This document shows, in pieces, positions 174 through 5,548 of a stretch of DNA of 44,270 nt. The notes under the pieces are model-generated. The model made no database searches, had not been told where the DNA came from, and was given only the letters and a program-made list of their open reading frames with translations. Position numbers and translations under genes: made by a program. Origin of the DNA: Phormidium sp. OSCR (GTDB lineage: Bacteria; Cyanobacteriota; Cyanobacteriia; Cyanobacteriales; Geitlerinemataceae); NCBI GenBank assembly GCA_001314905.1, contig LJZT01000029.1, forward strand, positions 1 to 44,270, in the 5' to 3' direction. Position 1 is the first letter of the stretch, and each line of letters starts with the position of its first letter.

Positions 174-2402
174 TTAACCGAACTTACCAGCCGTCGAGGC
201 AATCAGGAAGGCAGCGTAGGTGAAGATATACCCCACAGTAAAGTGAGCTAGACCCACAACCCGAGCCTGAACAATCGAGAGTGCAACGGGCTTGTCTTTC
301 CAACGAACCAGGTTCGCCAGAGGAGTGCGCTCGTGCGCCCAAACCAGGGTCTCGATGAGTTCTTGCCAGTAACCCCGCCAAGAGATGAGGAACATGAAGC
401 CTGTAGCCCAAACAAGGTGACCGAACAGGAACATCCAAGCCCAAACCGAGAGGTTATTGACACCGAAGGGATTGTAGCCGTTGATTAACTGGGAAGAGTT
501 CAACCACAGGTAATCGCGGAACCAACCCATCAGATAGGTGGACGACTCATTAAACTGGGCAACGTTACCTTGCCAAACGGTGAGGTGTTTCCAATGCCAG
601 TAGAAGGTCAACCAACCTAGGGTGTTCAACATCCAGAACATGGCGAGATAGAAGGCATCCCAAGCAGAGATGTCGCAAGTACCGCCACGACCGGGACCAT
701 CACAAGGGAAGCTGTAACCGAAGTCTTTTTTGTCCGGCATCAGCTTAGAACCACGGGCATCCAGGGCACCTTTAACGAGAATCAAGGTGGTGGTATGCAG
801 ACCGAGGGCGATCGCATGGTGGACTAAGAAGTCACCAGGACCAATGGTCAGGAACAGGGAGTTGGAACCACTATTGATGGCATCCAACCAACCGGGGAGC
901 CACACGTTGGCATGGTTGGGCCAAGCGGTGGTGGCAATGCTGTCGGGGTTCGACAGAAGAACATCAAAGCCGTAGAGGGCTTTACCCGATGCAGCCTGAA
1001 CCCATTGGGCGAAGACCGGCTCAATCAGGATTTGTTTTTCGGGGGTACCGAAAGCAACGACGACGTCGTTGTGAACATACAGTCCCAAGGTATGGAAGCC
1101 GAGGAACAGAGACACCCAGCTCAGGTGAGAAATGAGAGCCTCTTTATGATCCAGCATCCGAGCCAGAACATTGTTTTTGTTCATTTCGGGATCATAGTCA
1201 CGGACAAAGAAGATTGCGCCGTGAGCAAATGCCCCAACCATCAGGAATCCAGCAATGTACTGGTGATGGGTGTACAACGCTGCCATGGTGGTGTAGTCCT
1301 TAGCCATGAAGGCGTAGGGAGGCAGGGCGTACATATGCTGCGCCACCAGGGAGGTAATCACACCCAAAGAGGCGAGAGCCAGACCCAGTTGGAAGTGCAG
1401 CGAGTTGTTGATGGTGTCGTAGAGACCTTTGTGACCTTCACCCAACATTCCGCCGAAAGGAGTGCCTTTGGGGGGATTGTGAGCGCCGAGGATCTCTTTA
1501 ATGCTGTGACCGATACCAAAGTTGGTGCGGTACATGTGACCGGCGACGATGAACAGGACGGCGATCGCCAAATGGTGATGCGCCATATCCGTCAGCCACA
1601 GGGACTCGGTTTGCGGGTGGAAGCCACCCAAGAAGGTCAAGATAGCGGTTCCTGCACCTTCAGATGTGCCAAAGACATGGCTGGCGGTGTCAGGACTCTG
1701 AGCATAGACGCCCCAGTTACCGGTGAAGAAGGGCTTCAGTCCGGCCGGGTGCGGCATGGTGCTGAGGAAGTTATCCCAACCCACATGTTGACCCCGAGAT
1801 TCAGGGATAGCGACATGCACTAAGTGACCGGTCCAAGCCAGTGAGCTAACTCCGAACAGACCCGCGAGGTGGTGGTTCAGGCGAGACTCAGCATTTTTGA
1901 ACCAAGAAAGGCTCGGACGATATTTCGGTTGCAGGTGCAGCCAGCCCGCGAAGAGCATGACAGCAGCCAGAACCAGAAGGAAGATCGACCCTTGGTAAAG
2001 GTCATTGTTGGTGCGCATTCCGATGGTGTACCACCAGTGGTACACGCCGGAGTAAGCGATGTTGACCGGGTTAGATGCCCCGGCTTGGGTGAAGGCATCA
2101 ACAGCGCCTTGACCAAATTGGGGGTCCCAAATCGCGTGGGCGATGGGACGGATGTTTAGGGGATCTTTGATCCACTGCTCGAAGTTGCCTTGCCAAGCGA
2201 CATGGAAGAGGTTGCCCGAGGTCCACAGAAAGATGATGGCGAGGTGTCCGAAGTGGGAGGCGAAAATCTTTTGGTAAAGATTTTCTTCCGTCATACCATC
2301 ATGGCTTTCGAAATCGTGAGACGTAGCAATCCCATACCAGATCCGCCGTGTGGTTGGATCCTGGGCCAAGTCTTGGCTAAATTTTGGGAATTTCGTTGCC
2401 AT
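174..2402 (-). CDS. psaB: photosystem I core protein PsaB (P700 apoprotein A2)
   Basis: PsaB pairs with PsaA to form the photosystem I reaction-centre heterodimer in the thylakoid membrane. Together they bind P700, the primary acceptors, phylloquinones and the FX iron-sulfur cluster. The 742-residue length is normal. The protein has many hydrophobic helices with His-rich antenna-chlorophyll sites, and the FX-binding motif [10 protein letters not shown] that supplies two of the four cluster cysteines. The ATG is preceded by an AGGA ribosome-binding site. It lies 28 bp downstream of psaA, so the two are almost certainly cotranscribed, as is usual in cyanobacteria. Long antisense reading frames across it are shadows. 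Confidence 0.99.
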
Positions 2403-2430: not shown

Positions 2431-4686
2431 TCATCCTACTGAAATGATCCGTGCCAGGAAGAATGCCCAGGTTGTGGCAATCCCACCTAACAGATAGTGG
2501 GCGACGCCAACGGCCCGACCTTGAATGATGCTCAGGGCGCGGGGTTGAATCGCGGGAGCGACTTTGAGCTTGTTGTGAGCCCAAACAATCGACTCGATTA
2601 GCTCTTGCCAGTAGCCACGTCCACTAAAGAGGAACATGAGGCTGAATGCCCAAACGAAGTGAGCACCGAGGAACAGCAGTCCGTAGGCGGACAGGGCTGA
2701 ACCGTAGGAACCGATTACCTGAGAGGCTTGCGCCCACAGGAAGTCGCGCAACCATCCATTAATGGTAATGGAGCTTTGAGCAAAGTTGCCATAGGTGATG
2801 TGAGACACTGAACCGTCTGCACCAACTGTTCCCCAAACATCGGATTGCATTTTCCAACTGAAGTGGAAGATGACGATGGAGAGGCTGTTGTACATCCAGA
2901 ACAGACCTAGGAACACATGGTCCCAACCAGAGACTTGGCAGGTACCGCCACGTCCCGGACCGTCGCAAGCAAAGCGGAAGCCTAGCTCGGCTTTATCAGG
3001 AATCAGGCGAGAGCTACGAGCAAACAGAACACCTTTGAGCAGAATCAGCACGGTCACGTGAATCGTGAACGCGTGAATGTGGTGAACCAGGAAGTCAGCC
3101 GTACCCAGTTCAATGGGCATCATGGCGACTTTACCGCCGACGGCAACGACGTCACCGCCAAAGGCAGGACTCACACTTGCTAAGGCGTTGGGGGCAGTGT
3201 TGCCCGGCGCCAAAGTATGTAGGTGTTGAACCCATTGGGCAAAGATCGGTTGAAGCTGGATCCCCGTGTCGGAGAACATATCTTGAGGACGACCAAAGGC
3301 ACGCATGGTGTCGTTATGGACGTAGAGTCCAAAGCTGTGGAAGCCCAAGAAGATACAAACCCAGTTCAGGTGAGAAATGATTGCATCTCGGTGGCGGATG
3401 ACCCGATCAAGCAGGTTATCCACGTTTTTGGCAGGATCATAGTCACGAACCATGAAGATGGCTGCGTGAGCGCCTGCACCGACGACTAGGAAGCCGCCAA
3501 TCCACATATGGTGGGTAAACAGCGACAGTTGTGTCGGGTAATCCGTCGCAATGTACGGATAGGGAGGCATGGCATACATGTGGTGAGCCACAATGATGCT
3601 CAGAGAACCCAGCATCGCGAGGTTAATCGCGAGTTGAGCGTGCCAGGAGGTGGTCAGGATCTCATAGAGTCCTTTGTGACCTTCTCCGGTAAAGGGTCCT
3701 TTATGGGCTTCCAGGATTTCCTTCATGCTGTGACCGATACCCCAGTTGGTCCGGTACATATGACCCGCGATGATAAACAGGACGGCGATCGCCAAGTGAT
3801 GGTGGGCCGTATCGCTGAGCCAGAGACCACCGGTTTGGGGGTTCAAGCCACCTTTGAAGGTTAGGAAGTCTGCATATTCGCCCCAGTTCAAGGTGAAGAA
3901 CGGGGTTAAACCTTTGGCAAAACTGGGATACAGTTCCGCCATTTTGCTTGTATCAAGGATAAACTCGTGCGGCAGGGGAATATCCTGCGGTGCAACACCA
4001 GCATCCAGAAGTTTATTAATGGGAAGCGAAACGTGGATTTGGTGACCGGCCCAACCTAAGGAGCCCAGTCCGAGTAAACCAGCCAAGTGGTGGTTCATCA
4101 TCGATTCCACGTTTTGGAACCATTCCAGTTTCGGTGCACTGACGTGGTAATGGAACCAACCGGCGAACAGCATCAGAGCAGCCATGACTAGACCACCGAT
4201 GGCGGTGCAGTACAGTTGGAACTCGTTGGTAATGCCGCTGGCACGCCAGAGTTGGAACAAGCCTGAGGTAATTTGAATCCCGTGGAAGCCACCACCAACG
4301 TCGGCGTTGAGGATGTCTTGACCCACGATGGACCAGACTACTTGGGCGCTCGGTTTGATCCCGGTGGGATCGCTTAACCAAGCTTCATAGTTGGAGAAGC
4401 GCGCACCGTGGAAGTAGGCACCGCTTAACCAGATAAAAATGACTGCCAGTTGACCGAAGTGGGCGCTAAAGATTTTGCGCGATACTTCTTCTAAGTCGTT
4501 GGTTTGACTGTCGAAATCATGAGCGTCTGCATGGAGGTTCCAAATCCAGGTGGTGGTTTTTGGACCTCGGGCCAAAGTGCGATCGAAGTGACCGGGTTTG
4601 CCCCACTTCTCAAAAGAAGTTGGAACCGGGTTCTTGTCGACCTCGACTTTGACTTTTGCATCCCGCTCCTGGGGACTAATCGTCAT
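2431..4686 (-). CDS. psaA: photosystem I core protein PsaA (P700 apoprotein A1)
   Basis: PsaA is the partner of PsaB in the photosystem I core; it binds half of the P700 special pair, one phylloquinone and half of the FX cluster. The product is 751 residues, the normal length, with the same [12 protein letters not shown] motif and His-rich transmembrane helices as PsaB. A GAGGAGA ribosome-binding site lies about 5 bases before the ATG. It is the first gene of the psaA-psaB unit. Its leader is unusual: about 25 bp upstream of the ATG begins a structured segment resembling an IS200/IS605 right end, and the best promoter is about 500 bp away. Confidence 0.99.
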
Positions 4687-4710
4687 CGAGTCTCTCCTCT
4701 CTCTAGACCA

Positions 4711-4966
4711 TTGACATACTCACCAGCCTAAAGGCGTGGGGATGCTCTAGCCCTTACGGTACTAGATTCCTGGTTCGGCTTGACCGGCTGCTGATGTTCG
4801 TTTCCTCACATCGTTAGCTCGGCGGCTCTCTCCAGGCATTTCTCTCAAAGTTTAACGCACGATGCGTTGGATTTGAGATCAGTTCCCGGATGCCCTCCGG
4901 TACTACGTGAAACGCATTCTATCACAGATAAATCTGCTTAGAATGTCTCCCGAATTATAGGGAGGC
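4711..4966 (-). mobile_element. IS200/IS605-type right end with omegaRNA-like scaffold, no tnpB
   Basis: Read on the minus strand, this segment ends with a small bulged hairpin (CCAGCC at 4723-4728 with GGCGTGG at 4733-4739) followed by ...GTCAA at 4711, the arrangement I know from right ends of IS605-family elements. Upstream lie further stem-loops: CCGGA/TCCGG (4886-4900), a nested CTCAAA...AACGCA/TGCGTT...TTTGAG (4844-4877), CATTCT...AGAATG enclosing CAGATAAATCTG (4915-4945), and CTCCC/GGGAG (4947-4964). This matches the shape of a TnpB guide-RNA scaffold that overlaps the element's 3' end. No tnpA or tnpB is present, so it is a remnant, a MITE-like derivative or a stand-alone RNA. Hairpins are seen directly; family assignment is from memory of similar ends. 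Confidence 0.5.
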
Positions 4967-5104
4967 TTTTAGACTCGCTTTCTTGGGTAACGTTTCGCTG
5001 CAAAACATTCTAACCAACTTCCGCAGTCTTGGATGTGATAACTTGGGATTTTTAAATCCCATATTACGTTTTTTATCTTTTATGTCGCTTGCAGTCAGCT
5101 TCAT
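4955..5104 (-). CDS. possible 49-residue small ORF in the psaA leader
   Basis: A short open frame starts with ATG at 5104 and stops with TAA at 4955, inside the CTCCC/GGGAG hairpin of the omegaRNA-like segment. The product would be very basic (MKLTASDIKDKKRN...), rich in Lys and Arg, with no family I recognise. It could be the degraded C-terminus of a lost tnpB, a leader peptide or chance. There is no clear ribosome-binding site. Reported only because it sits between the likely psaA promoter and psaA. Confidence 0.2.
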   Translation of the reverse strand: MKLTASDIKDKKRNMGFKNPKLSHPRLRKLVRMFCSETLPKKASLKASL

Positions 5105-5548
5105 ATTAGGGAAGTTGATGATTCCGCTGCTCAAAACCCGAGGGTTTAAGAGCTAGACTGAATGTTCTGCGGCTGTTACCGAGAATCTATGTTTGTGATT
5201 ATAGGTCTTCTTTCGGAATAATTCAAACGATTTCTTTTTATTTTTTGGCTAGGTGGGCTAGTAAAATTTTCTCGGTAAGTCAAGTAACGTAACATTAACT
5301 TTACAAAAGTTAAATTGTTTTAATAAATTGCACAGAGACGTAGCAAGTCTAGATCTATATATAATACACACCATGGTACAGGATGGATGGCTGGCTCTCC
5401 AACCGGCCAACCCGTTGGCCGAGAGCGGACGGGGCCAGAGGAGTTTTCAGGCTGTGGAGGTAACGCAGTTTGGGCATTTTCCGCTATAGTGACTGGCAAG
5501 TCCAGTGGTTTGCAATGGACGTTGTTATTTCGAGGGAGTGTTTCAGGC
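4967..5548. other. intergenic region between divergent psaA and the 5549 gene
   Basis: Apart from the minus-strand promoter, this stretch holds two more inverted repeats, GGGATTT/AAATCCC (about 5046-5061) and GCTC..AAACCC/GGGTTT..GAGC (about 5131-5155), and a plus-strand TATAAT at 5360-5365 that could start the transcript of the lipoprotein gene at 5549. The frame open upstream of 5549 (from 5387) shows no signal-peptide or domain character and is probably leader. Confidence 0.5.
5198..5226 (-). promoter_or_regulatory. sigma70-type promoter reading toward psaA
   Basis: On the minus strand TTGAAT (5226-5221) and a perfect TATAAT (5203-5198) are separated by exactly 17 bp. Initiation would fall near 5190, giving psaA a leader of about 500 nt that includes the omegaRNA-like segment. 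Just upstream (5260-5315) is an AT-rich stretch with repeated TTAC words that could hold regulator sites, but I cannot assign a factor. Confidence 0.6.

Follow-up and report, generated by a model that had tools for sequence, protein, structure and literature searches.

Why should an RNA that looks like the guide end of a transposon stand immediately before the start codon of psaA, and does it now serve that gene? OmegaRNAs are known as parts of transposons. We examined the question in a 44,270-nt stretch of DNA from Phormidium sp. OSCR (contig LJZT01000029.1; the window). An earlier note, made from the letters alone, had proposed that the right end of an IS200/IS605 element lacking tnpB is embedded before psaA, either as a dead tail or as a retained RNA. 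In the open-licence literature we found no paper joining psaA with IS605, TnpB or omegaRNA.

A tnpB-less IS608-type element before psaA

The 276-nt feature before psaA is, by its sequence, a whole tnpB-less IS200/IS605 (IS608-type) element, with both ends and an omegaRNA region. The locus is laid out as follows.

174–2402, minus strand: psaB (PF00223, E 0)
2431–4686, minus strand: psaA (PF00223, E 0)
4687–4710, minus strand: psaA ribosome-binding region TGGTCTAGAGAGAGGAGAGACTCG in guide position, directly 3' of GTCAA; the same 24 nt stand in the empty-site genomes G008 and G009
4711–4986, minus strand: tnpB-less IS200/IS605 (IS608-type) element; edges from the G008 and G009 empty sites and the ends of related elements
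4987–4990, minus strand: TTAC target/TAM at the left flank; GTTAC just outside the left end in 6/6 read-through genomes, CGTTAC+TGGTCTAG in G008 and G009
5198–5226, minus strand: candidate promoter of psaA, TTGAAT-17-TATAAT, lying 5' of the element; sequence reading and alignment of g1, G008 and G009

The element reads on the minus strand, sense to psaA, which bears out the orientation given earlier, and PsaA and PsaB are confirmed by PF00223. Its right end (...GTATGTCAA) closes at 4711, exactly where the terminal GTCAA had been placed, and 24 nt separate it from the psaA ATG (4686). At the right junction of the six read-through genomes GTCAA is followed by TGGTCTAG, and the psaA ribosome-binding site does occupy the guide position that the earlier note had assigned to it. 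On the other side the element starts directly 3' of GTTAC (4991–4987) with a left end of its own. The far edge had been drawn at 4966; the empty sites and the left ends of related elements put it at 4986, with the omegaRNA-like part confined to 4711–4911. Because both transposon ends are present, we regard the element as whole and non-autonomous and not as a right-end tail: the attribution to IS200/IS605 and the omegaRNA-like character stand, while the restriction to a right end does not. If transcription starts a few nucleotides past the putative promoter (an assumed start site), the psaA leader would be ~505 nt long.

Domain searches found neither a TnpB domain nor a Y1 transposase on the window's contig, in agreement with the proposed absence of tnpB at psaA. 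Five matches to Y1 TnpA genes lie elsewhere in the window's genome, where the psaA copy is the sole full match to the element.

G008 and G009, from two other genera of the same family, are without the element and carry ...CTCGTTACTGGTCTAGAGAGAGGAG... at the site. Because these empty sites read through TTAC, the insertion can be placed 3' of TTAC, as for IS608. The element occupies the same place before psaA in all seven genomes examined from the genus (G000–G006) and was found at psaA in none of the family's seven other genomes; a single insertion in the ancestor of the genus would account for this distribution. In G003 a run of N in the leader leaves the insert visible at its right end only, and this genome was left out of the rate and fold comparisons. 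Sequence records of Phormidium willei BDU 130791 and Geitlerinema sp. P-1104 likewise contain the right end of the insert together with the start of psaA.

Kinship with elements that carry tnpB

The motifs recognized by IS608 TnpA are C_L TTAC, C_R TCAA, G_L AAAG and G_R GAAT, as given in the excerpted text of PMC5934647. The psaA element shares with IS608-type members of IS200/IS605 the TTAC target, a right-end hairpin, the TCAA end and, preceding the left hairpin, AAAG (replaced by AAAA in G004). It differs in having neither tnpA nor tnpB and, in 7/7 copies, in the change of GAAT to GCAT or ACAT and a mispaired right-end stem. Its parts are these.

4947–4970, minus strand: left-end AAAAGC and hairpin CTCCC..GGGAG, equivalent to the AAAG guide and the palindrome that IS608-type elements have at their left end (motifs as in the excerpts of PMC5934647); resembles relatives' GGGTCTAAAGCCTCG... 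left ends
4914–4946, minus strand: second hairpin, ACATTCTA..TAGAATGC; 28/33 columns invariant in six genomes
4711–4911, minus strand: omegaRNA-like scaffold; match to covariance model R1, 105.8 bits, E 3.6e-25
4881–4903, minus strand: stem 1 with GGGCA loop (GTACCGGAGGGCATCCGGGAACT); 22/23 columns invariant; may form a pseudoknot with the ATGTC that precedes the guide position
4840–4880, minus strand: variable arm 1, hairpin retained; 14/42 columns invariant; folding z −2.5 to −4.1 in 6/6
4774–4831, minus strand: variable middle arm (stem 3-like), hairpin retained, partly deleted in G002; 2/58 columns invariant; z −1.6 (G002) to −6.3 (G004)
4762–4779, minus strand: tnpB 3'-end relic GCCGAACCAGGAATCTAG, last codons ..EPGI-stop; the 472-aa TnpB frame of L213 and L214 has an identical EPGI-stop
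4711–4745, minus strand: right end, with GCAT/ACAT as altered guide tetranucleotide where relatives have GAAT, a UUUA-loop hairpin containing GGTG in place of relatives' GGGG, and TGTCAA

The EPGI-stop relic can be read in five of six genomes, G004 being the one in which it cannot.

Copies of the last 33–36 nt are spread across the order. At E <= 0.001 the 282-nt query has matches in 84 of 291 genomes, and those listed outside the genus stop at the right end or 1 nt before it. The comparison with tnpB-linked elements that had been suggested was run and found such elements. Eight of 20 fetched copies contain a TnpB frame of 429–439 aa that stops ~20 nt before the right end. Six of the 20, from G008, are without a TnpB frame; five of these have a common long body and a left end consisting of TTAC and then CAAAAATTTGGGTCTAAAGCCTCG, and the sixth (L064) agrees near the right end only. 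L213 and L214, also from G008, bear tnpB as a 472-aa frame, with a left end after TTAC, and both TnpB-type domains were found in the protein (412-aa form tested). The omegaRNA of L213 and L214 matches the psaA element part by part, and the left end of the psaA element is also as in L213.

Non-autonomous, tnpB-less IS605 derivatives (MITE-like, such as the multicopy short elements of G008) likewise have both ends and an omegaRNA with no TnpB frame; the psaA copy differs from them in having no second full match in its own genome and in being orthologous throughout the genus and apparently immobile. G008 is rich in omegaRNA-type elements (L064–L069, L212), with 84 R1 matches, four of them tied at the top score.

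Fold and omegaRNA covariance model

The nested stem-loops described in the earlier note are real: 4687–4975 (minus strand) folds at −100.8 kcal/mol (z −4.68), and 0/200 shuffles fold as well. Covariance model R1 was built from six omegaRNAs, two from G008 and one each from G040, G160, G091 and G024, none of them derived from psaA. Run against the 44-kb window at E up to 10, it gave the single match at 4711–4911 (minus strand), and it also matches the genus's five other complete psaA leaders at E 1.1e-20 or better; E-values of this search are rough by the tool's own statement. Rfam gave zero family matches on the whole window at gathering scores, and on 4500–5420 up to E 5 it gave two unrelated chance-level matches and nothing else. 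The Rfam psaA motif, RF01752, matched neither the window nor any of 40 other loci, and hence there is no positive control for it.

A close architectural parallel is the omegaRNA/reRNA of ISDra2 TnpB, as described in excerpts of PMC10097598: shared features are placement at the right end with the sequence running on into flanking DNA, a stem 1 whose loop can pair with pre-guide nucleotides, a middle stem and a hairpin with a UUUA tetraloop. According to the same excerpts, stem 1, the pre-guide pseudoknot and the UUUA-tetraloop hairpin of ISDra2 are bound, and stem 3b can be replaced by a short linker (PMC10097598). The psaA copy differs in being embedded in what would be a host mRNA leader, in lying on a contig without tnpB and in its weakened right-end stem, and TnpB binding is putative. 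By analogy with the ISDra2 architecture (PMC10097598, excerpts), the stem-1 loop and ATGTC are candidates for a pseudoknot; GGGCAU is complementary to AUGUC, and both are invariant in 6/6, hence with zero covariation.

In a new leader fold predicted for 6/6 genomes, the left end pairs with AGACUCG before the AUG and the right end with UGGUCUAGAG. CGAGTCT of the left end (4971–4977) is fully complementary to AGACTCG (4687–4693) near the psaA start in 6/6, and four relatives' left ends that were examined have TGGGTCT in its place. We do not claim that this fold sequesters the psaA ribosome-binding site, because shuffled guides pair as well (155 and 555 of 2000, within chance). A long left-end/right-end helix proposed by RNAalifold was rejected, being outcompeted by other folds once downstream sequence was added.

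Probable loss of mobility

Apart from the psaA copies of the genus, 79 of 82 right-end contexts matching the search pattern have GAAT; the seven psaA copies all lack it and have ACAT (five contexts) or GCAT (two). These copies have GGTG where all 82 other contexts have GGGG; the pattern admits GGTG and GGGG only, and the 82 distinct contexts exclude the psaA copies of the genus and include the second-genus leaders described below. The computed energy of the right-end hairpin is −7.9 kcal/mol in the psaA copies vs −15.1 kcal/mol in relatives' ends. Since GAAT is lost and the stem mispaired in 7/7, excision is unlikely by analogy with IS608 biochemistry, and the psaA element is probably immobile. 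With both GAAT and full right-end pairing missing, we therefore class it as a relic of the IS608 family and not as an active member.

Conservation within the genus

Constraint was measured in six genomes, with tests against four-fold sites that treat sites as independent. The mean pairwise difference is 0 in the last 34 nt, 0.054 in the last 62 nt and 0.095 in the left half; it is 0.111 in the upstream leader, 0.170 at psaA four-fold sites, 0.304 in arm 1 and 0.416 in the middle arm. Taking the invariant psaA four-fold sites (194/301) as the reference fraction, the last 34 nt (P 3e-7), the last 62 nt (P 3e-6) and the left half (P 2e-4) vary too little, the same holds for the upstream leader (183/233 columns invariant, P 2e-6), and both arms vary too much.

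The omegaRNA core (stem 1, ATGCCTGG, CCAGGAA and the right end) has 69/73 columns invariant vs 14/42 and 2/58 in the arms, in slices that differ slightly from those of the pairwise differences. Within the core the counts are 22/23 for stem 1, 7/8 for ATGCCTGG, 6/7 for CCAGGAA and 34/35 for the right end. The TCTAG hairpin has 16/21 columns invariant and the left-end parts 11/16, 18/24, 28/33 and 8/10. The arms still form hairpins at pairwise differences up to ~0.6, even in G004, where most letters have changed and conversion by another element is possible. The middle arm of G002 has a deletion of ~39 nt and folds weakly better than shuffles (9/200). Pairs changed on both sides number 14/53 vs 6.6 in shuffles (0/500 as many), counted in a model-fitted alignment that leans towards structure; one right-end pair is broken in 6/6.

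The insert is old, being present in 7/7 genomes, and under constraint, and from these alignments it seems to have been kept by selection, probably for its role within the leader RNA. The dead tail suggested earlier does not fully describe it.

A separate insert in a second genus

R1 also matches the psaA leader of G014, from another family. In G014's genus (g7), 24 of 29 genomes match the G014 leader over the insert; the other five gave no match over the psaA part of the leader-plus-psaA query, and in G067, from another genus of G014's family, the insert was not found. R1 passes E 0.01 in 22 of the 24 insert leaders; of the remaining two, one reached 0.12 and the other gave no match. The g7 insert ends 48 nt before the ATG, unlike the site in the window's genus, and resembles other tnpB-bearing elements (L290, L291); because of this different place and likeness, we take it to be a separate capture. 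The terminal TCAA is retained in 2/24 copies. Conservation of the g7 insert does not exceed that of psaA four-fold sites (37/76 invariant, 23 genomes), and pairs in the insert show no covariation above shuffles, so we do not claim selection there (G182, identical to G014, was left out of alignment A5, and G268, with a short psaA piece, out of the g7 four-fold count). In some g7 copies (examples are L054:2034–2204, minus strand, and L266–L289) the stem-1 loop is CGACA, not GGGCA, and still complementary to TGTC before the end.

Beyond the window's genus, R1 was run on 99 psaA loci, some of them sharing a genus, and was positive at one (G014). The survey comprised 23 loci with the one positive and then 76 further leaders, 0/76 of which pass E 0.01 (best 0.019); in 63 of the 76, a simple pattern search located the psaA start where it was expected. 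A native leader would have been indicated by the same segment before psaA in distant cyanobacteria. The segment did not turn up in any psaA leader examined from another genus; one genus has a different insert of the same kind. On the empty site in G008 and G009 and this survey we reject a native psaA leader.

TnpB genes in the genus

Six of the seven genomes of the genus encode TnpBs, with a best identity of 52–59% to the G008 TnpB; long matches at 66–100% identity occur in G008 only. At E <= 1e-30, the window's genome (187 contigs) yielded a relative at 34% identity and, where a contig breaks off, one piece of 80 residues. A search of the genus for the closest TnpB type gave relatives of 52–59% at best. 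R1 matches besides the one at psaA are present in 7/7 genomes.

What the element may do at psaA

Exaptation of the element as a structured psaA 5' leader is, in our judgement, the likeliest reading, and about as probable as not. The element would be transcribed within the ~505-nt leader, its fold and the segment adjoining the ribosome-binding site would now matter for the stability or translation of psaA mRNA, and TnpB would not be needed. The nearly frozen core, the unchanged last 34 nt and arms that have diverged yet retain their hairpins argue for this reading, as do the paired changes in excess of shuffles, the apparent immobility and the fact that a second genus has separately kept an insert of this kind. 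However, conservation near the ribosome-binding site could equal ordinary leader constraint, the upstream leader being conserved too, and the highest conservation falls on the TnpB-type core, superfluous in a TnpB-independent leader. The new leader fold is no better than with shuffled guides, the second-genus insert is without excess conservation or covariation, the pair counts come from a structure-fitted alignment, and the middle arm of G002 folds weakly. A neutral relic, that is, an ancient insertion never lost and conserved at its right end solely by the adjoining ribosome-binding site, is in our view rather unlikely. It accords with the abundance of IS605-type right ends (84/291 genomes), the fast decay of the arms and the unremarkable conservation of the second-genus insert, and with many solo omegaRNAs about, we estimate, without computing it, that psaA struck in two genera of the order is unremarkable. 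It does not explain why stem 1, ~200 nt from the start codon, has 22/23 columns invariant, or why the hairpins of the arms persist after most of their letters changed. Cyanobacteria are in general polyploid. A TnpB encoded elsewhere might act in trans by binding the omegaRNA part of psaA mRNA. Its guide would be the psaA ribosome-binding site, and the complex would either cut element-free psaA leaders (TTAC+TGGTCTAGAG...), fixing the element in what would be a polyploid cell, or mask the ribosome-binding site. We consider this unlikely. Its strongest point is that the columns that hardly vary belong to the omegaRNA core (stem 1 with its GGGCA loop, the UUUA-loop hairpin and TGTCAA). The arm partly lost in G002 sits at the dispensable stem 3b of ISDra2 (PMC10097598, excerpts), TnpBs at 52–59% identity occur in 6/7 genomes and further R1 matches in 7/7, and the relatives' empty site has TTAC and target intact. 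Excerpted reports also describe a TnpB gene drive on multicopy plasmids (PMC11870625) and the processing by TnpB of its own mRNA (PMC10278001). Against it, every copy has a weakened right-end hairpin and the genus has no close TnpB, the long 66–100% matches being confined to G008.

The more specific idea that psaA mRNA doubles as a TnpB guide RNA, loaded by TnpB from other copies, is doubtful. If true, both the expression of photosystem I and the lasting presence of the insert in a polyploid chromosome would be tied to an RNA-guided nuclease, and the solo omegaRNAs before a petJ-like gene, bolA and others would form a small regulon of mRNA-borne guides. Repression of the psaA promoter, or of another gene, by a nuclease-dead TnpB working with the element RNA would resemble the TldR regulators, which excerpts of PMC13418256 establish as existing. 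We regard it as very improbable, since the guide matches its own source leader, where TTAC is no longer adjacent after insertion; TldR is recognized by a nuclease-dead TnpB encoded beside the guide, and the window's contig holds no TnpB domain. TldR (PMC13418256) and the TnpB gene drive (PMC11870625), as excerpted, have in common with the psaA locus the host-relevant reuse or selfish retention of TnpB/guide systems; the psaA locus differs in having the RNA half only. Hardly credible, finally, is a native psaA leader structure (RF01752, for example) that merely looks like an omegaRNA. Structured RNA does occur in some cyanobacterial psaAB leaders, as in the psaA motif of Weinberg et al. (excerpts of PMC2864571). 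That motif, RF01752, has three hairpins, often with UNCG loops, and the excerpted description mentions no transposon origin (PMC2864571); it goes unmatched in the psaA element and the rest of the window. The empty site in G008 and G009, the 0/76 further leaders passing E 0.01 and the matches of both ends to transposons also speak against a native structure. At this locus the RNA half has become fixed in the absence of its nuclease and is under constraint, within the leader of a core photosynthesis operon; a similar insert was separately kept in a second genus. The psaA insert is a natural test of what a stranded omegaRNA does: leader element, decoy or live guide.

Solo omegaRNAs elsewhere in the genus

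Eleven places with solo omegaRNAs were fetched from many R1 matches and chosen with their context, so they give no unbiased count; several have no gene start close behind. At L378 (G000:C38), L381 (G004:C91) and L383 (G006:C343) an orthologous omegaRNA element stands 50 nt before the bolA ATG, with no TnpB zinc-ribbon frame. The bolA copies differ little and are therefore less informative on constraint. L379 (G000:C77; omegaRNA at 175–342) is a tnpB-less element in the sense orientation to a cytochrome c gene (petJ-like; PF13442, PF00034) and ends 18 or 36 nt upstream of it, by the start codon chosen. L385 (G003:C664) and L384 (G006:C122) each have a solo omegaRNA behind one and the same purA-like frame, an identification made by eye; the next gene in L385 is, also by eye, ribosomal protein L25-like.
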